Source: Promicromonospora sp. Populi
Lineage (GTDB): Bacteria > Actinomycetota > Actinomycetes > Actinomycetales > Cellulomonadaceae
Assembly: GCF_041081105.1 (NCBI RefSeq)
Contig: NZ_CP163528.1
Coordinates: 2,356,001-2,420,000 of the forward strand
Direction of reading: 5' to 3'
DNA: 64,000 bases
Numbering within the stretch: position 1 is the stretch's first letter; the number at the start of each line of letters is the position of its first letter. Made by a program: the position numbers and the translations under genes. Under the pieces are notes generated by a model. That model was not told the DNA's origin and did not search any database. It was given only the letters and a program-made list of their open reading frames with translations. Positions 13,973 through 55,913 of the stretch are shown here, one piece after another.

Positions 13973-14048
13973 TGGTGGAGCTGGGGGGACTCGAACCCCC
14001 GACCCCCTGCATGCCATGCAGGTGCGCTACCAGCTGCGCCACAGCCCC
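13973..14048 (-). tRNA. tRNA-Ala(GGC), copy 1, CCA encoded
   Basis: On the minus strand, acceptor GGGGCTG pairs with CAGCTCC. Other parts are the D arm GCGCAGCTGGTAGCGC, the anticodon stem CCTGC/GCAGG with 7-nt loop ATGGCAT (anticodon GGC) and the TpsiC arm GGGGGTTCGAGTCCCCC. The discriminator A is followed by a genomically encoded CCA. Identical in its body to the copy at 14959-15031. Confidence 0.97.
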
Positions 14049-14958: not shown

Positions 14959-15031
14959 TGGAGCTGGGGGGACTCGAACCCCCGACCCCCTGCATGCCAT
15001 GCAGGTGCGCTACCAGCTGCGCCACAGCCCC
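14959..15031 (-). tRNA. tRNA-Ala(GGC), copy 2, CCA incomplete
   Basis: Same 73-nt body as the copy at 13976-14048, with anticodon GGC. After the discriminator A the genome reads CCG, so the terminal A must be restored by CCA-adding enzyme. Confidence 0.97.
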
Positions 15032-19636: not shown

Positions 19637-20847
19637 CCTTGGAGAGTACGTCGGGTGCGGGCGAATGCGGAGGTTGAACTCATCGGCCGTTCCAGCACCA
19701 GGTCGTCCCGGTGCACGACCACCCGGTCGTACCCCTCCCCGAGCTCGTCACGGAGCGAGTAGGTCGAGCGCCCCAGCAGCGCGGGGAGGTCGGTGGCGTC
19801 GAAGGCGACGAGGCCCCGGGCGACCACCGTGCCGTCGGGCGCGACGAGCTCGACCGGGTCTCCGGCGTCGAACTGCCCCTCGGCCCGGGTGATCCCAGCG
19901 GGCAGCAGCGAGGCGCGGCCGCCCAGGACGGCGCGCGCGGCGCCGTCGTCCAGGTGGAGGCGGCCCTGCGTGCGGGCGGCGTGCGCGATCCAGAGGCGGC
20001 GCGCCGAGGTGCGGCGTCCGGTGGCGGCGAAGAACGTACCGACGTCGTCCCCGGCGAGGGCGGAGGCGGCGTTCGCCGTGAGGGTGAGGACGGCGGGCAC
20101 CCCCGCGCCGGTGGCGATCCGCACCGACTCCAGCTTGGTGACCATGCCGCCCGTGCCGACGGCGCTGCCGGGCGCTGTCACCTCGACGGCCGCGATGTCC
20201 GCGAGGTCGTCGACCAGCGGGATGCGGCGCGCGCCCGGACGCGACGGCGGTGCGTCGTGCAGGCCGTCGACGTCGGTCAGGAGCACCAGCGCGTCCGCGC
20301 GCACCAGGTGCGAGACGAGCGCCGCGAGGCGGTCGTTGTCCCCGAACTTCAGCTCGTCGGTAGTGACTGCGTCGTTCTCGTTGATGACCGGTACGACGCC
20401 GAGCGCGAGCAGGCGCTCCAGCGCCCGCTGGGCGTTGCGGTAGCGGGCGCGGCGCACGGTGTCCTCGGCGGTGAGCAGGATCTGCCCGATCTGGATGCCG
20501 AACGCCGCGAACTCCTCCTGGTACCGGCCCACCAGCTGGCCCTGACCCACGGACGCCGCGGCCTGCATGGTGGCGAGGTCACGCGGCCTGGTGCCGAGCC
20601 CGAGCGGGCCGATGCCCGCCGACACGGCGCCGGAGGTGACCAGCACCACCTGGCCGCCCGCGGCCTGCCGGGCGGCCAGCACCTCGACGACCCCGCGGAG
20701 CGCGCCCACGTCGAGGTGCCCCTCCGGACCGGTCAGCGACGACGAACCGATCTTCACCACCACCCGCTTGGCGGTGGCGATGGCGGAGCGAGCGCCCGCG
20801 CGACCGCCGGCTTCCTGGGGAGTCCCCGAGGGGGCGAGGGAGTTCAC
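19633..20847 (-). CDS. proB: Glutamate 5-kinase ProB
   Basis: 404 aa from GTG 20847 (GGAGAGG 8-9 nt upstream); ATG 20889 is an alternative start. It phosphorylates glutamate with ATP, the first and feedback-controlled step of proline synthesis. Kinase domain: [27 protein letters not shown] and [15 protein letters not shown]. Further on, [20 protein letters not shown] is typical. The C-terminal ~80 residues form a PUA domain, starting at [10 protein letters not shown]. Confidence 0.95.
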
Positions 20848-27395: not shown

Positions 27396-27454
27396 GCCTC
27401 GGGCGGAAGGCAATTACGAGATGCGGTTGGGTCTGACGGACCCCCTGATCCGTC

Positions 27455-27580
27455 GAGTTCGGTCGGTTGCACGCCAGGCTTTATGAGATCGGTCGCTTGC
27501 CTTGAGATCGGTCGTTTGATTGACCGATCTCAAGGCAAGCGACCGAAGTCACGGATGGGCTGGTGCAAGGGACCGAAGTC
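27455..27580. repeat. Modular mirrored repeat element A (intergenic)
   Basis: 8-nt modules at 27455 (GAGTTCGG), 27485 (GAGATCGG), 27504 (GAGATCGG), then mirrored at 27524 (CCGATCTC), 27543 (CCGAAGTC) and 27573 (CCGAAGTC). Spacers are 22, 11, 12, 11 and 22 nt, exactly symmetric about 27517.5. The inner 25 nt of each side (27489-27513, 27522-27546) pair perfectly. It lies between the acyltransferase stop (27613) and the GNAT start (27395), in a region with no gene. Confidence 0.85.
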
Positions 27581-27612
27581 AGCCGCCCCCGGCTGCCGGC
27601 CTAGCCTCCGCA

Positions 27613-36067: not shown

Positions 36068-37960
36068 ATGAAGCCCCTCGATCCGCGCCTGCTGCGGGAG
36101 GTCCGTGCGGCCCGCTGGTACGTCGTGCTCACGGTCGGGCTCGGCGTGGCCGCGGCCGGGCTGATCGTCGCCCAGGCGCTGCTCATCGCCGCGCTGCTCG
36201 CGCCGGTCGTGCGGGGCGACGGCGTGTCGGGGCCCGCGATGACGTGGTCCTTCGCGGGACTGGCGCTCGTGATCGCCGGGCGGGCAGGCGTCGCTTGGGC
36301 GCAGGAACGCTACGCGCTGCGCGCCGCCGCCCGGACGATCGCCGAGCTGCGCCGCGCACTGGTCGAGGGGTGGGCGCTGCGCGGGCCCCGGGCGGGCGGA
36401 GCGGCGTCGGGCAAGGGGCACGGCGCGAGCCCGGAGGCCGAGGTCGCGACCCTCGCGACGCGCGGGCTCGACGCACTGGAGCCGTACCTCGTGCGCTACG
36501 TGCCGCAGCTTGTGCTGACGGCGCTGGTCACGCCCGCGCTCGTGATCGTGGTGCTCGGCCTGGACTGGGTCTCGGCGGTGATCGTGATCGTGACGCTGCC
36601 GCTGGTGCCGGTGTTCATGGTGCTCGTCGGGCGACTGACCGCAGGGGCCTCAGAGCGGCGACTCGCCACGGTGGAACGACTCGGCGCGCAAGTGCTCGAC
36701 CTCGTCGCCGGGCTGCCGACGCTGCGCGCGTTCGGGCGGTCGTTCGGCCCGGGAGAGCGGGTGCGCGCGCTGGGCGAGGCCTCCCGCAGGGCCACGATGG
36801 GCACGCTGCGGATCGCGTTCCTCTCCTCGATGGTGCTGGAGCTGCTGACCACACTGTCGGTGGCGATCGTCGCCGTCGGAGTGGGGCTGCGGCTCGTCGA
36901 GGGCGCCATGTTGCTTCAGCCGGCGATCGCTGTGCTGGTGCTCGCGCCTGAGGTGTACCTGCCGCTGCGGCGGGTAGGGGCTGAGTTTCACGCTTCAGTT
37001 GACGGGGTGGCGGCTGTTTCTCGGGTGTTCGCTCTGCTTGGTTCCGACCGGTCGGAGGGCGGGGATGTTCCTGCAGAGGCGAAGCTTGCGACAGGGGTGG
37101 CGGGCTGGGGCCTGGTGCTGGAGGGGGTTTCCGTGCGGGCGGCGGGGCGGGGGGTGATTGCTCCTGCCGGACTGTCCGCGCGGGTACCGCTGGGGGCCGG
37201 GGCTGGTGGCCGCGGGACGGTTGTCGCGCTGCGGGGAGCCAGCGGGTCGGGGAAGTCGACGGCGGTGCTCGCGATTCTCGGACTGCTGGCGCCGGATGCC
37301 GGGCGCGTGGGGCTGGTCTCTCCCGACGGTGGGTTCCACGATCTGGCGGCGCTGCCGGACGGCGGGCTGGACGGCTGGTGGGCCGGGCTCACGTGGGTGC
37401 CGCAGCGGCCGTCGCTCCCGCCGGGGCGGCTGCGCGACGTCGTCCTGGACGGTGTTCCTGACGCGGGTCGGACGCTTGCCGAGGCGGCGCGGCTTACGGG
37501 GCTGAACGCCGTCGTCGAATCGCTGCCCGAGGGCTGGGACACGCGCGTCGGGCTCGGCGGCGTGGGGCTGTCCGTGGGGCAGCGGCAGCGCGTCGCGCTC
37601 ACATCCGCCCTGCTCGACGACGCGGTCACCAAGCCGCTGGTGATCCTCGACGAGCCGACTGCGCACCTCGACGCGCGGGGTGAGCAGGCGGTGCTCGACA
37701 CCGTCCGGTCCTGGCGCGACGCGGGCCGGACCGTGCTCGTCGTCGCGCACCGGGCGTCGCTGCTCGAGCTCGCCGACCAGGTGATCGACGTCCGTTCTGC
37801 GCCGGACCCGGGTTCGATGGCCGACCCGAGAGCAACGACGGACTCGGCGAGGAACCGAGGAGCGACGACGGAACCGGCGACAGAGCCGGCAGCAGGGCCG
37901 GTGGCACGGCAGACCGCGGACCCGACGTCGGGCCCCGCGACAGACCGGGAGGCACGATGA
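36068..37960 (+). CDS. cydD: Thiol exporter ABC protein CydD
   Basis: 630 aa. An N-terminal six-helix ABC transporter domain (~1-310) precedes an ATPase with Walker A GASGSGKST, signature LSVGQRQRVALT and Walker B LVILDEPTAHLD, H-loop VVAHR. A ~40-residue Thr/Ala/Pro-rich tail follows. With CydC it exports glutathione or cysteine to allow cytochrome bd assembly. ATG 36068 chosen; GTG 36050 is an alternative. Overlaps cydC by 4 bp. Confidence 0.93.
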   Translation: MKPLDPRLLREVRAARWYVVLTVGLGVAAAGLIVAQALLIAALLAPVVRGDGVSGPAMTWSFAGLALVIAGRAGVAWAQERYALRAAARTIAELRRALVEGWALRGPRAGGAASGKGHGASPEAEVATLATRGLDALEPYLVRYVPQLVLTALVTPALVIVVLGLDWVSAVIVIVTLPLVPVFMVLVGRLTAGASERRLATVERLGAQVLDLVAGLPTLRAFGRSFGPGERVRALGEASRRATMGTLRIAFLSSMVLELLTTLSVAIVAVGVGLRLVEGAMLLQPAIAVLVLAPEVYLPLRRVGAEFHASVDGVAAVSRVFALLGSDRSEGGDVPAEAKLATGVAGWGLVLEGVSVRAAGRGVIAPAGLSARVPLGAGAGGRGTVVALRGASGSGKSTAVLAILGLLAPDAGRVGLVSPDGGFHDLAALPDGGLDGWWAGLTWVPQRPSLPPGRLRDVVLDGVPDAGRTLAEAARLTGLNAVVESLPEGWDTRVGLGGVGLSVGQRQRVALTSALLDDAVTKPLVILDEPTAHLDARGEQAVLDTVRSWRDAGRTVLVVAHRASLLELADQVIDVRSAPDPGSMADPRATTDSARNRGATTEPATEPAAGPVARQTADPTSGPATDREAR

Positions 37961-39921
37961 CCGCCCCGACGCGGAGCCGGACGTCGAGCGCCGCGCGGGT
38001 CGCACAATCCGACCCGCTGCGGCGCGTCCTGCCCCTGCTGGAGGTCCGCCCGGGCAAGGTCGCCGCCGCGATCGGGCTCGGGGTCCTGGCCCTGGCCTGC
38101 GCGATCGGGCTCGCGGCGGTCGCCGCCTGGCTCATTGCCCGGGCGTCGCAGATGCCGCCGGTGCTCACGCTGTCGGTGGCCGTGGTCGCGGTGCGGGCCT
38201 TCGGGATCGGGCGCGGTGTGCTGCGCTACTGCGAGCGCCTCGCCTCCCACGACGTCGCCCTGCGGGGCATGGCCGCCCTGCGCGCCAACCTGTACGACCT
38301 GCTCGCCGCCGACGACCGGCCGGTCACAGTGCGGCGCGGCGAGCTCCTGGCGCGGGTCGGCCAGGACGTGGATGACGTCGGCGACGTCGTGGTCCGCGCG
38401 ATCGTGCCCGCCGGTGTCGCGGTCGTGACGTCGCTGGGTTCGGTGATCCTGCTGGGTGCGCTGCTGCCGGCTGCGGGTGTGGCGCTGGCGTTCTGCCTGG
38501 TCCTGGCCGGGATCGTGACGCCGTGGCTCGCCGCGCGGGCAGCGGCCAGGACCGAGGCGCGGGGGGCTGCCGCCCGCGGCGAGGTGACCACGCTGGCGCT
38601 GGAGATCCTGGAGGAGTCGGCGCCGCTGCGCGTCGCGGGCCGGTTCGACGCGCGGCTGGGCGACCTGAAGGCCGCTGACGCGCGCCTGTCCGACGTCGCC
38701 GACGACGGCGCCCGCACCGCAGGGCTCGCCGCCGCCCTGGGGGTGTTGGCCCAGGGCCTCGCGGTGCTGGCCGCGCTGGCGCTCGGGATCCCGGGGGCGT
38801 TGTCGGGTTCGTTGTCGCCCGAGGCGCTGTCGGTGGTCGTGCTGACGCCGCTCGCGGTGTTCGAGGCGACCGCCGCGCTCCCCGCCGCCGCGGTCCAGCT
38901 GCACCGCTCGCGCGAGGCCGCGCGGCGGTTGCTGGCGCTGCTGCCCGCGGAAACTTCGGCGGAGCCCGGGTCGGGGCAGTTGTCAGACGCCGACGTCGGC
39001 CGAGTGACCGCAGGGTCTGACGCGTCCGGCGCGTCTGGTGCGTCCGGCGCGTCTGGTGTGTCCGGCGCGTCTGGTGTGTCCGGCGCGTCTGGTGTGTCCG
39101 GGGCCGACGGCGACGCGCTGCTCGTGCTCGACGACGTCGCCGCCGGCTGGCCCGACGCCGGCGGTCTGCCGCGCACCGCCGTCGAGGGTGTGTCCCTCAC
39201 GCTGCGGCCGGGTTGGGTCGTGGCGCTGGCCGGGCCGTCCGGCGTCGGGAAGACGACGCTGCTCATGACGGCGGCCGGCCTGATCCCGCCCGTCGCCGGA
39301 ACCGTGTCCGCGCGGTCGGCAGAAGGTCACGTGGTCGGCAACCCGGGTTACCGACCACGTGACGAACTGCCGACCGCCCGCACCGGTGCGCTGTTCGTTG
39401 CCGAGGACGGGCACGTGTTCGACACGACAGTGCTGGAGAACCTGCGGGTCGTGCGCGGCAACGTCACGCCGGACGAGGCGCGGGCCGCGCTCGGCGCCGT
39501 CGGGCTGGGTGCTTGGCTCGCGGCGCTCCCCGAGGGGCTGGACACCGTCGTCGGCACGGGCGCGGCCGCTGTTTCGGGCGGCGAGCGCCGTCGGCTGCTG
39601 ATCGCCCGCGCGCTGCTGTCCCCCGCGCGAGTGCTGCTCGTGGACGAGCCAGCCGAGCACCTGGACGGCGACACCGCCGACGCGCTGGTGCGTGCACTGG
39701 CGGAGCATGCCCGCAAGACCGGTCGGGCCGTGCTGCTGGCGACGCACCGCCTCACGCCGCTGGCCGCCGCGGACGAGGTGCTGCTCCTGGGGGACGGCGC
39801 CAACGCGGCGCCGGCGGCCGGCGCTCCGGCGCGGGTCGTGGCCCGCGGAGATCACGAGCACCTCCTCGCCGCGAACCCCGGATACGCGTGGTCGGCTACC
39901 CAGGAGAACTTCCCGGCCTGA
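37957..39921 (+). CDS. cydC: Thiol exporter ABC protein CydC, with in-frame repeat insertion
   Basis: 654 aa. ABC transporter half with membrane domain ~1-330, Walker A AGPSGVGKTT (~425), signature VSGGERRRLL (~540) and Walker B LLVDEPAEHLD. Two oddities: a linker of GASGVS repeats (~357-380), and ~22 residues at ~453-474 (EGHVVGNPGYRPRDELPTAR) encoded exactly by a 66-bp mirrored repeat between Walker A and the signature motif. The frame is kept. Coupled to cydD; final gene of the operon. Confidence 0.93.
   Translation: MTAPTRSRTSSAARVAQSDPLRRVLPLLEVRPGKVAAAIGLGVLALACAIGLAAVAAWLIARASQMPPVLTLSVAVVAVRAFGIGRGVLRYCERLASHDVALRGMAALRANLYDLLAADDRPVTVRRGELLARVGQDVDDVGDVVVRAIVPAGVAVVTSLGSVILLGALLPAAGVALAFCLVLAGIVTPWLAARAAARTEARGAAARGEVTTLALEILEESAPLRVAGRFDARLGDLKAADARLSDVADDGARTAGLAAALGVLAQGLAVLAALALGIPGALSGSLSPEALSVVVLTPLAVFEATAALPAAAVQLHRSREAARRLLALLPAETSAEPGSGQLSDADVGRVTAGSDASGASGASGASGVSGASGVSGASGVSGADGDALLVLDDVAAGWPDAGGLPRTAVEGVSLTLRPGWVVALAGPSGVGKTTLLMTAAGLIPPVAGTVSARSAEGHVVGNPGYRPRDELPTARTGALFVAEDGHVFDTTVLENLRVVRGNVTPDEARAALGAVGLGAWLAALPEGLDTVVGTGAAAVSGGERRRLLIARALLSPARVLLVDEPAEHLDGDTADALVRALAEHARKTGRAVLLATHRLTPLAAADEVLLLGDGANAAPAAGAPARVVARGDHEHLLAANPGYAWSATQENFPA
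39025..39096. repeat. 18-bp tandem repeat in cydC
   Basis: TCCGGCGCGTCTGGTGTG, four copies (the first with GCG at its end), encoding the SGASGV linker between the membrane and ATPase domains. Confidence 0.9.
39312..39377. repeat. Modular mirrored repeat element C (in frame inside cydC)
   Basis: Modules GCGGTCGG (39312), GTGGTCGG (39331), mirrored CCGACCAC (39351) and CCGACCGC (39370), with spacers 11, 12 and 11 nt. Total 66 bp, i.e. 22 codons. Same periodicity and 12-nt centre as elements A and B. Confidence 0.85.
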
Positions 39922-41797: not shown

Positions 41798-41957
41798 GGA
41801 CGCCGAGCCCTGTCACCGGATCTGAGCAGCTAGAACGTGACAGGGGCGGGGGAACCAAGTAAGCGGGCACGCGAGTGTCCTCGGGGTGAAGCCTCCTTTG
41901 GAGGCCGGGTGAACTGAACTCCCCATCCGAACCCGACAGCTCACTTCGTAGGCGTCC
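41798..41957 (+). ncRNA. c-di-AMP riboswitch (ydaO/yuaA)
   Basis: P1 is GGACGC (41798-41803) with GCGTCC (41952-41957). Inside are the conserved blocks GGCGGGGGAACCAAG, TCGGGGTGAAGCC, GGGTGAACTGAACTCCCC and ATCCGAACCCGACAGCTCAC. This class binds two c-di-AMP molecules and turns off expression of cell-wall hydrolases in actinobacteria. It ends 13 nt before the NlpC/P60 start, so translation control is plausible. Confidence 0.95.
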
Positions 41958-41970
41958 GAGGAGATCACTG

Positions 41971-54151: not shown

Positions 54152-54664
54152 ATGATGGCACCGGAAGACGTGACCATCCGCCCAGCAACGACGACCGACG
54201 CCGAAGCCATCGCTCGTGTCGACATCGCCTCCTGGCGTGGTGCTTACTCAGAGATACTGTCCAGCTCCTACCTGGCGTCGCTCGACGTCACCGAGCGAGC
54301 CAGCCGATGGAAAGCGGCAGTGACCGCGGCCGATACGACGGTCCTCGTTGCCGAGGACGCGAGCGGCACCGTCGGATTCACCAGCGTGGGCCCGACCCGC
54401 GACGAGGACGCCGAGCCCGGCGACCTCGAGATCTACGCGATCTACCTGCATCCCCGCGCGTGGGGCAGCGGCGTGGCACGCGACCTGATGCGCACCGTGC
54501 TCGACGGCCTGGACCCGGGCGTCGTCGTGACCCTCTGGATCCTCAAGGGCAACAACCGCGCACAGCACTTCTACCGGCGGCACGGTTTCCAGCCCGACGG
54601 CACCGAGCGCATAGACGACATCGGCGGCCGGCCGCTAACTCAGCTCCGCTTCCGCAAGCGCTGA
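54152..54664 (+). CDS. GNAT N-acetyltransferase
   Basis: 170 aa. VTIRPATTTDAEAIARVDIA, IYAIYLHPRAWGSGVARDLM (acetyl-CoA loop) and NNRAQHFYRRHGFQPDG. Typical GNAT, substrate unknown. GGAAAGGTGAGG precedes ATG 54152. Its TGA stop is the first part of repeat element B. Confidence 0.87.
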   Translation: MMAPEDVTIRPATTTDAEAIARVDIASWRGAYSEILSSSYLASLDVTERASRWKAAVTAADTTVLVAEDASGTVGFTSVGPTRDEDAEPGDLEIYAIYLHPRAWGSGVARDLMRTVLDGLDPGVVVTLWILKGNNRAQHFYRRHGFQPDGTERIDDIGGRPLTQLRFRKR

Positions 54665-54766
54665 GGTCGGCACCCTGCACTGAGGCCGTGACTTGGCACC
54701 GAGGTCGGCTCAGGCCTGGACCGACCTCGGTGCCAAGTCACGACCTCACGCGAAACTGCCGACCTC
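54663..54766. repeat. Modular mirrored repeat element B bridging convergent stops
   Basis: Modules GAGGTCGG (54663), GAGGCCGT (54682), GAGGTCGG (54701), mirrored CCGACCTC (54721), ACGACCTC (54740), CCGACCTC (54759). Spacers are exactly 11, 11, 12, 11, 11 nt. The preceding T makes TGAGG, whose TGA is the GNAT stop, and the following A completes TCA, the thiL stop on the other strand. A strong hairpin. Confidence 0.9.
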
Positions 54767-55913
54767 ATGCTCCGAAGTGGTCCCAGCCTGGGCCGACGGC
54801 GGGGGCACGGCCGCCGATCGTGACGGCCGGCGCGGCGGCTTCGGCCTCCTCGCCGTCCCCGGCCGCGATGTCTGCAACCTCGCCCTGCCCGGTCGCGCCG
54901 TCCTCGACCTCGCCGTCCCCAGCCTCCAGCACCTGCCCGACGGCGGTCCAGGCCTCCGGCAGCCGGGTACCGGCCGGGAACGTGGCGAGCAGCCCGTGGT
55001 CCTCTCCTCCGGCCCAGATCCAGCGGTTGACCAGCCCGTCGATGTCGGCGGTGCCCGGCCCCCACCCCGGGTCGCCGAGCCCCGTGGCCGCGGCCACGGC
55101 TCGCGCCGCCGAGTGCAGTGCTTCCCGGTCCGCGGCGAACGCCCCCGCGTCGAGGTCGATCCGCACCGCACTCGCGTGCGCCACCCGCCCGGCGTCGCGC
55201 AGGAGGCCGTCGGAGAGGTCGAGCATCGAGGTGGCACCCGCCTGCGCCGCCGTCACACCGGCCGCGAGCGGCGGGTCGGGCCGCAGGTACGCGGTCACGA
55301 GCCGCTCCCACGCGTCCTCCAGGAGCACACCGTCGGTCACCTCCAGCGGCGCCGAGGACAACGGGACGCGGACCAGCCCGGCCTCCAGCAGGGCCAGCCC
55401 CGCGGCCGACCAGCCGCGTACCCCCGCGTGCGCGACGACGTCGCCAGGCCGTGCGCCCGACCGCAGCACCGGCGCGCGGTCCTCCAGGTCGCCGTGCACG
55501 GTGATGCTCACGACGAGGCACGGGCCACCCGAGAGGTCACCGCCGACGGCGCCGGCGCCGACTGGCGCGCAGCCGTCGGCCAGGCCCCTGGCCAGCCCCG
55601 TCACCCACTCCAGCTCGGTGTCGCCGGGCACCACCAGGGACGTCACCAGCGCCGTCGGGCGTGCGCCCATGGCCGCGATGTCGGCAAAGTTCTGCGCGAC
55701 GGCCCGACGTCCGACGTCGTACCCGGTGGACCAGCGGGCGCGGAAGTGGCGGTCCTCGACCAGCACGTCGGTCGAGACGACGAACCGGCCGTCGGGAGCC
55801 GCGAGCACCGCGGCGTCGTCGCCGGGCCCGAGCAGCGTGGCGGTCCCCTGGGGAAGCAGGGGCACGATGCGCTCGAGGATCTGCTCCTCGGAGAGGTCAC
55901 GGACGCGGGTCAC
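54765..55913 (-). CDS. thiL: Thiamine-monophosphate kinase
   Basis: 382 aa. LLGPGDDAAVLAAPDGRFVVSTD, DVGRRAVAQNFADIAAMGA and STSMLDLSDGLLRDAGR bind Mg-ATP and TMP; AGGEDHGLLATFP is also typical. It makes thiamine diphosphate. A 30-residue acidic insertion (~340-368) lies before the end. GTG 55913 is 6 nt after TAGGGT (leaderless), divergent from DUF3515. Confidence 0.94.
   Translation of the reverse strand: MTRVRDLSEEQILERIVPLLPQGTATLLGPGDDAAVLAAPDGRFVVSTDVLVEDRHFRARWSTGYDVGRRAVAQNFADIAAMGARPTALVTSLVVPGDTELEWVTGLARGLADGCAPVGAGAVGGDLSGGPCLVVSITVHGDLEDRAPVLRSGARPGDVVAHAGVRGWSAAGLALLEAGLVRVPLSSAPLEVTDGVLLEDAWERLVTAYLRPDPPLAAGVTAAQAGATSMLDLSDGLLRDAGRVAHASAVRIDLDAGAFAADREALHSAARAVAAATGLGDPGWGPGTADIDGLVNRWIWAGGEDHGLLATFPAGTRLPEAWTAVGQVLEAGDGEVEDGATGQGEVADIAAGDGEEAEAAAPAVTIGGRAPAVGPGWDHFGA

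Follow-up and report, generated by a model that had tools for sequence, protein, structure and literature searches.

Modular palindromes dispersed at gene ends and in frame within genes of Promicromonospora, with arms that change together

The genome of Promicromonospora sp. Populi carries a family of palindromic repeats whose copies are scattered, mainly at the 3' ends of genes and sometimes in frame within genes, and orthologous sites may be filled or empty. In the palindrome, the stem changes on both sides together, and the outer modules do not. We consider it reasonably probable that the family is a dispersed palindrome of the BIME or Rickettsia palindromic element (RPE) kind, spread by a trans-acting factor, with arms that are kept matched by template switching and probably also by selection. 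Each copy would be a non-autonomous mosaic of short modules round an inverted pair, folding as a long hairpin. A trans-acting factor other than a Y1/RAYT transposase would recognise either the modules or the hairpin, and template switching between the arms in replication would match them and also flip the loop, with selection for a foldable hairpin acting in addition. The outer modules would be multiplied by slippage in units of ~31 nt. At gene ends the hairpin would probably act as a putative two-way 3' boundary or weak terminator, as a by-product.

The window, by which we mean the whole stretch of 64,000 nucleotides that was analysed (contig NZ_CP163528.1, positions 2,356,001 to 2,420,000), contains a subtype A element at 54663..54766 (no strand assigned), which was read directly and folded. 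Its six modules, at 54663, 54682, and 54701 on one side and 54721, 54740, and 54759 on the other, are separated by 11, 11, 12, 11, and 11 nt, just as the initial annotation had them, and the 12-nt centre occupies positions 54709-54720. The subtype A modules of this element follow GAGGTCGGCA, modules 2 (GAGGCCGT) and 5 (ACGACCTC) being imperfect. An inner palindrome with arms of 34 nt extends over 54681-54748, and the whole 104-nt element folds at -79.2 kcal/mol (z -12.0), a value equalled by none of 200 shuffles.

According to the ORF list, the element lies between an ORF of GNAT type on the plus strand (54152..54664) and a thiL ORF on the minus strand (54765..55913); both names are carried over from the first reading of the sequence and are presumptive. 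The TGA stop of the former (54662-54664) overlaps the first module and the stop of the latter (54765-54767) overlaps the last, and the element had been thought to supply the two stop codons. However, the corresponding junction of P. soli reads TGA-T-TCA without any element, and the stops are therefore not derived from the element; at the element-free junction of P. umidemergens both stops are likewise kept, 16 nt apart. The stops that the outer modules overlap exist independently of them. The thiL query showed 83% identity to several named Promicromonospora. Among 10 Promicromonospora loci, that of the window included, the long element is present in four (the window, AC04, sukumoe, and MEB111), a bare core in one (iranensis UTMC 3169), and no element in four (umidemergens, soli, panici, and iranensis UTMC 00792), the tenth locus (kroppenstedtii) having an assembly gap.

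The same module, 19-nt period, and 12-nt centre had been reported to recur at 27455-27580 and 39312-39377. The former is a 126-nt subtype B element (27455..27580; no strand assigned), also read directly and folded, with modules at 27455, 27485, and 27504 and, beyond the centre, at 27524, 27543, and 27573, so that the module steps are 30 and 19 nt, a centre of 12 nt, and 19 and 30 nt. It folds at -85.2 kcal/mol (z -12.9; equalled by 0 of 200 shuffles). The reported recurrence holds for its inner step of 19 nt, but the step to each outer module is 30 nt (27455 to 27485 and 27543 to 27573). The element at 39312..39377 (plus strand) is indeed a copy of the family, of subtype C, but it is not intergenic: ORF, Pfam, and folding analyses show that its 66 nt, equivalent to 22 codons, keep the frame of a CydC-type ORF and fall within the ABC ATPase domain, after the Walker A motif. 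Its predicted fold has -52.5 kcal/mol (z -9.9; equalled by 0 of 200 shuffles). Rfam 15 gave three matches in the window at the gathering score, none of which was at the elements.

The modules differ in sequence between the subtypes, being GANWTCGGTC-NN-TTGC in subtype B (27455 element) and GTGRTCGGYA in subtype C (39312 element). Common to subtypes A, B, and C is a plan in which an inverted module pair flanks a centre of 12 nt and a second module lies 19 nt further outward; subtype B has additional modules at +30/31 nt. Module offsets were collected from the 142 arms of 71 strictly selected subtype B copies, taken from the Populi genome (G000) and from two sister strains of P. iranensis (G003 and G012). 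The 257 matches to same-direction modules fell at just 17 offsets, of 19 nt (128 matches), 48-50 nt (97), 79-81 nt (17), 111-112 nt (5), and 142-144 nt (4), with off-series matches at 37 nt (twice), at 89 nt (once), and at three further, unlisted positions. Modules of opposite direction were found at 32 nt (13 matches), 63 nt (once), and 94 nt (once). The 19-nt step of subtype B is therefore specific to the first interval and later steps are 30/31 nt, so the exact 19-nt period that had been described does not extend to the family as a general rule. At locus L037 (1551-1640), three tandem mini-cores, each a 28-nt inverted module pair with a 3-nt linker, are repeated at 31 nt and adjoin a full element; these are possibly the unit by which the outer modules expand.

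A genome-wide search with the core pattern GAGRTCGG-N12-CCGAYCTC (at most one mismatch) gave 44 matches in the 5.22-Mb genome of the strain and none with the reversed-pattern control. All 12 other genomes of the genus also had matches, 6 to 63 each (controls, 0 to 1), and the repeat family is thus dispersed in the strain and throughout the genus genomes searched. Both further copies and empty sites, whose absence the initial annotation regarded as decisive against its proposal, were found. The annotation had also suggested a co-distributed RAYT-like transposase. This was not borne out, as PF01797 matched 0 of the 13 genus genomes and 5 of 14 control genomes, and a RAYT/Y1 transposase is accordingly rejected as the mobiliser in the genus.

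The arm pattern TCGG-N4-TTGC-N3-GA-N2-TCGG was present in 12 of the 13 genus genomes and in 10 of 187 other genomes of the taxonomic family (control, 0 of 200). Forty-one of the matches outside the genus were in one genome (G522), the other nine positive genomes having 1 or 2 each. The G522 genome (locus L318), which is incomplete, belongs to genus g9, of whose other searched genomes each had 0 or 1 match; this contrast within one genus could help in finding a mobiliser. Six loci of other genera (L299, L301, L302, L304, L318, and L320) contain mirrored modules 19 nt apart with a 12-nt centre and different module letters; the mirrored 19-nt/12-nt plan was not present at the matches L298 and L319, and it is less clear at L300, L303, L305, and L321. 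A bare 19-nt direct repeat searched across the class matched in 100 of 394 genomes (18 matches in the Populi genome and at most 4 in any other), mostly noise outside the genus. Tandem or mirrored repeats with the same 19-nt period and other letters were also seen at actinobacterial loci of families f17 and f33 (L124, L125, L126, L128, L133, and L139). We regard it as possible, and no better than tentative, that these sequences belong to an undescribed actinobacterial dispersal system, in which an enzyme not of the Y1/RAYT type would recognise GANWTCGG modules in the folded strand and insert copies of whole hairpins at gene ends and, with the reading frame kept, within protein genes; related families of other genera (the six loci above) would follow the same 19-nt/12-nt plan, and G522 would represent an isolated burst. 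Among the matches listed from open-licence PMC papers, none describes the Promicromonospora repeat family.

Gene context was assigned to 53 copies of the Populi genome, these being the copies retrieved and not every copy, with a codon-trained, uncurated gene caller. Eighteen are convergent, 25 tandem (including the three mini-cores of one locus), 4 divergent, and 6 within genes, whereas the background, which is that of one window only (31 gaps of at least 60 nt), has 3 convergent, 19 tandem, and 9 divergent gaps. The excess at gene 3' ends is compatible with either a tolerated parasite or a function at the ends of transcripts. A family of bidirectional terminators or mRNA 3'-end protectors, selected at gene ends and spread by recombination instead of transposition, would account for the share of convergent copies (18 of 53 versus 3 of 31 gaps) and for the intergenic subtype C copies, which lie within about 25 nt of a gene end and of which, in the Populi genome, 4 of 7 carry TTTT directly behind the stem (on both strands in two cases). 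We nevertheless hold it to be unlikely. In G003 and G012, where 10 subtype C copies were read, just 2 have TTTT behind the stem, the T-run characteristic of intrinsic terminators was not seen after the stems of subtypes A and B, and six copies are within coding sequence, including one (L119) with TTTT solely antisense to its gene. The five cydC copies whose DNA was read have no TTTT, and in G003 a further stem-like stretch intervenes between a tRNA-Thr gene and the L170 copy, which lies about 65 nt downstream of that gene. In addition, a convergent bias is typical also of BOX, RUP, SPRITE, and IS elements, as stated in excerpts of PMC3049150.

The six in-gene copies among the 53 examined are in frame within ORFs that have gene-like codon composition on both sides of the copy. 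The CydC-type ABC transporter coding stretch of the window (37951..39918, plus strand; the start is a chosen one, the open frame beginning further upstream) has its PF00005 domain at amino acids 412-568 and the insert at about amino acids 454-476; Pfam itself gives ABC_tran, and we take the product to be of CydC type. The other five, identified by Pfam where a match exists, are in an amine-oxidase-family protein (L043), between the two helicase domains of a DEAD-box helicase that also carries an MrfA Zn-binding domain (L044), in an MpaB-type oxygenase (L045), inside the domain of a LUD-domain protein (L119), and in a protein without a Pfam match (L041). Of these copies, the four that belong to subtypes A and B (L041, L043, L044, and L045) are all read in one frame, as RDRSxxxPISxQ. 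The cydC insert is present, with similar peptides, in 9 of 13 genomes (the Populi genome, G008, G001, G010, G012, G003, G002, G006, and G005), and it is absent from three (G004, G011, and G007); the ortholog was not found in the 83% complete genome of G009. In G001, G006, and G010 the matched stretch contains one TGA. In a tree of the rest of the CydC-type protein, in which some branches are weakly supported, the empty genomes stand in two places, which implies either two or more events in addition to the original insertion, or several insertions. Rickettsia is the best-known source of in-frame palindromic insertions. Their occurrence in a CydC-type ATPase domain and a LUD domain of a high-GC actinobacterium suggests that proteins can be altered in this way outside Rickettsia too.

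The covariation of the arms was analysed in the 71 strictly selected subtype B copies (26 from the Populi genome, 23 from G003, and 22 from G012), for which six Populi rows (three subtype A copies and the three mini-cores of one locus) and two G012 rows had been left out of 79. Between 4 and 32 nt from the dyad, base pairing is mostly maintained. The variable stem pairs covary with z values of 7.2, 10.4, 8.7, and 10.4 at distances (d) of 14-17, of 3.2 and 4.7 at 21-22, and of 2.2 and 2.3 at 29-30, values that are not probabilities because the copies are related. Loop columns 0, 2, and 3 pair below the expectation from base frequencies (z about -3). In loop column 1, T/A is kept in 96%, and an open loop seems preferred (d = 0-3). 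The 13 nt of columns 34-46 are neither paired nor conserved, and the outer module (columns 47-62) is conserved, its two sides being uncorrelated beyond their own frequencies (z -2.3 to 2.9). The earlier statement that the spacers are complementary within each element thus applies to the inner spacers and fails for the stretch outside the subtype B stem.

The two P. iranensis strains allow changes to be followed between orthologs, which makes for a cleaner test. Across 18 orthologous pairs, whose stems comprise 522 pair cells, 20 cells have changed on both sides (2.3 expected) and 30 on one side, and 17 of the 20 are paired in both strains; orienting the pairs by best identity or by the flanking strand gave the same counts (20, 17, and 30). 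The two-sided changes include transversions and changes at neighbouring positions, such as 14-16 in L168/L250. Outside the stem, they number 24 versus 22.4 expected in columns 34-46 and 28 versus 28.4 in the outer module. A two-sided change alone is no proof of pairing, since the loop columns also exceed expectation (11 versus 4.0).

These patterns bear on the multi-site binding platform that had been offered as an alternative, in which one protein, for example a chromosome-organising protein, would occupy each double-stranded module and the outer modules would be set at ~31 bp (three helical turns). We rate it as quite unlikely, although it would explain outer modules that are conserved at fixed offsets without arm-to-arm correlation, in the alignment (z as above) as in the ortholog double changes, and also the unpaired and unconserved stretch between them (d = 34-46). 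Although binding to double-stranded DNA does not require the spacers to be complementary, those of the inner part show strong covariation. The inner step, of 19 nt, is out of phase with 31, a 31-nt period would be kept equally well by tandem slippage, and sites that are gained or lost between strains are poor candidates for an essential platform.

The loop itself is sometimes inverted between orthologs. Among 28 ortholog pairs the loop orientation is direct in 20, inverted in 4 (exactly so in one), and tied in 4. The 12-nt centres of L163 and L247 are exact reverse complements of each other (0 mismatches inverted, 6 direct), both arms being direct; the loops of L164/L248 (2 mismatches inverted versus 6 direct) and L157/L242 (3 versus 5) likewise lean to inversion between direct arms, and L042/L180 leans weakly to the inverted orientation (3 versus 4). 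The paired double changes and the flipped loop bear out the description of the repeat as templated. In RNA genes, multi-base compensatory changes and loop inversions have been ascribed to template switching by Monttinen and Loytynoja, in whose study, as represented by excerpts, the joint occurrence of a compensatory change with a loop inversion was rare and not enriched (PMC8794818). Template switching is the likeliest way in which the arms of the Promicromonospora hairpins stay matched, selection for a foldable hairpin probably also keeps them so, and the loop flips could also have arisen by conversion from a paralogous copy. In the 18 G003-G012 pairs, the element identity is 0.85 and that of the flanks 94%, and in 16 of the 18 the best paralog is closer than the ortholog; between the Populi genome on the one hand and G003 and G012 on the other, the element identity is 0.75 and that of the flanks 86%. 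Element identities lower than those of the flanks would be compatible with fast evolution or with conversion. With its many orthologous hairpins, two-sided changes, and loop flip, the family offers a data set on template switching versus selection.

Clean insertion at orthologous loci, as expected of a mobile repeat by the initial annotation, is not supported: there are empty sites at thiL, at cydC, and at loci compared with G003, but no target duplication was seen. Within the window, positions 19665..19672 (no strand assigned) are such an empty site by ortholog comparison, their 8 nt corresponding to ~263 nt, with a subtype B element among them, in the ortholog of G003 (P. iranensis UTMC 00792). 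When 26 G003 loci were set against G012, the core was present in 20 and absent, with matches on both sides, in four (L154, L160, L170, and L173), and two (L172 and L175) gave no clear call. The right-hand match of L160 in G012 is short, and in the sister strain other sequence of 1.4-1.7 kb takes the place of the core at L170 and L173. Extra sequence of ~1.4-1.7 kb in one genome, beside the element or replacing it, was noted at three element loci in all (L263 versus L168, L330 versus L173, and L329 versus L170). In the comparison of 17 G003 loci with the Populi genome, the core is present in seven (L150, L151, L158, L165, L168, L169, and L175) and absent from seven (L153, L154, L160, L161, L162, L170, and L173), with no clear call for three (L157, L163, and L172). 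Neither a target-site duplication nor sharp ends were seen at the six junctions read of the seven core-less Populi sites. Most empty sites differ from the filled ones by more than the element; the sole clean difference, of 117 nt (L154 versus G012), does not end at the element ends and leaves one outer module behind. As far as the alignments tell, gain and loss appear indistinguishable at most sites. Because many copies (20 of 26) are common by descent to the sister strains, movement is slow.

Carriers and parents of the element were sought in several ways. The subtype B arm pattern (at most two mismatches) has 28 plus-strand and 29 minus-strand matches in the Populi genome. Fifty-six of these form 28 plus/minus pairs at a spacing of 33 nt; the remaining match is part of a subtype A copy, and there is no lone B arm. 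The exact B core was found in 0 viral contigs, and the query 27440-27595, which is one subtype B copy, had no match in 72,556 plasmid and 50,697 phage records. Binding repeats of 19 bp are found at the ends of Tn402- and Tn7-like elements. A MITE made of two DDE-transposon end-sets fused without genes between them would resemble such paired ends in the direct 19-nt repeats of each half and in the inversion between the halves, but it is very improbable, given that no B arms are split at two mismatches or fewer in the Populi genome (all 56 are paired at 33 nt, so that no full-length parent with B ends exists there), that no target duplication was seen at the compared sites, and that the plasmid, phage, and viral searches gave no match. 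For the preferred reading of a dispersed palindrome spread in trans, the absence of a RAYT from the genus, of a B-end parent from the Populi genome, and of phage and plasmid matches to the one copy used as query points to a mobiliser that is none of these.

In habit the family comes nearest to the Rickettsia palindromic elements, and its build is most like that of BIME and BOX. Rickettsia palindromic elements are described, in excerpts of PMC10969869, as dispersed sequences of about 150 bp, many of them in frame in unrelated genes with a recurrent peptide. The Promicromonospora copies share with them, as a likeness of habit judged by description, the in-frame position in coding genes and a shared frame (four of six copies, subtypes A and B). 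They differ in occurring in another phylum and in sequence of 72% GC, in being mosaics of short modules with fixed steps of 19 and 30/31 nt, and in that arm covariation at the level of orthologs and the loop flip are shown in Promicromonospora. BOX elements are modular with a variable number of units, and BOX, RUP, and SPRITE stem-loops are over-represented between convergent genes, the mobiliser of BOX and SPRITE being uncertain (excerpts of PMC3049150). The resemblance to BOX, in modularity, variable unit number, stem-loop, and convergent bias, is one of plan only; unlike BOX with its boxA, boxB, and boxC, the family is mirror-symmetric, has the same module on both arms, and has in-frame copies in protein genes. 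REP and BIME sequences are mosaics of short palindromes with units in alternating orientation, according to parts of PMC2817692, and the opposite-direction modules at a fixed 32-nt offset are a similar trait. The family departs from REP/REPIN-RAYT systems in the absence of a Y1 transposase from all 13 genus genomes. Neither of the REP/REPIN hairpin end tags GTAG and CGTC given in excerpts of PMC3733652 is at the stem base of the subtype B consensus, the one subtype inspected for them. Multi-base compensatory changes and loop inversions link the family to hairpins maintained by template switching, which the consulted portions of PMC8794818 describe for rRNA and microRNA genes, whereas here they occur in a dispersed DNA repeat at 18 orthologous loci.

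Other structured sequences were also observed in the window. A long hairpin at 761-838, with 36-nt arms and a 6-nt loop, has no module and does not seem to be a member of the family. Rfam identified a c-di-AMP riboswitch at 41818-41969 (58.2 bits) and two tRNA genes with the same scores, ~1 kb apart, at 13976-14048 and 14959-15031.
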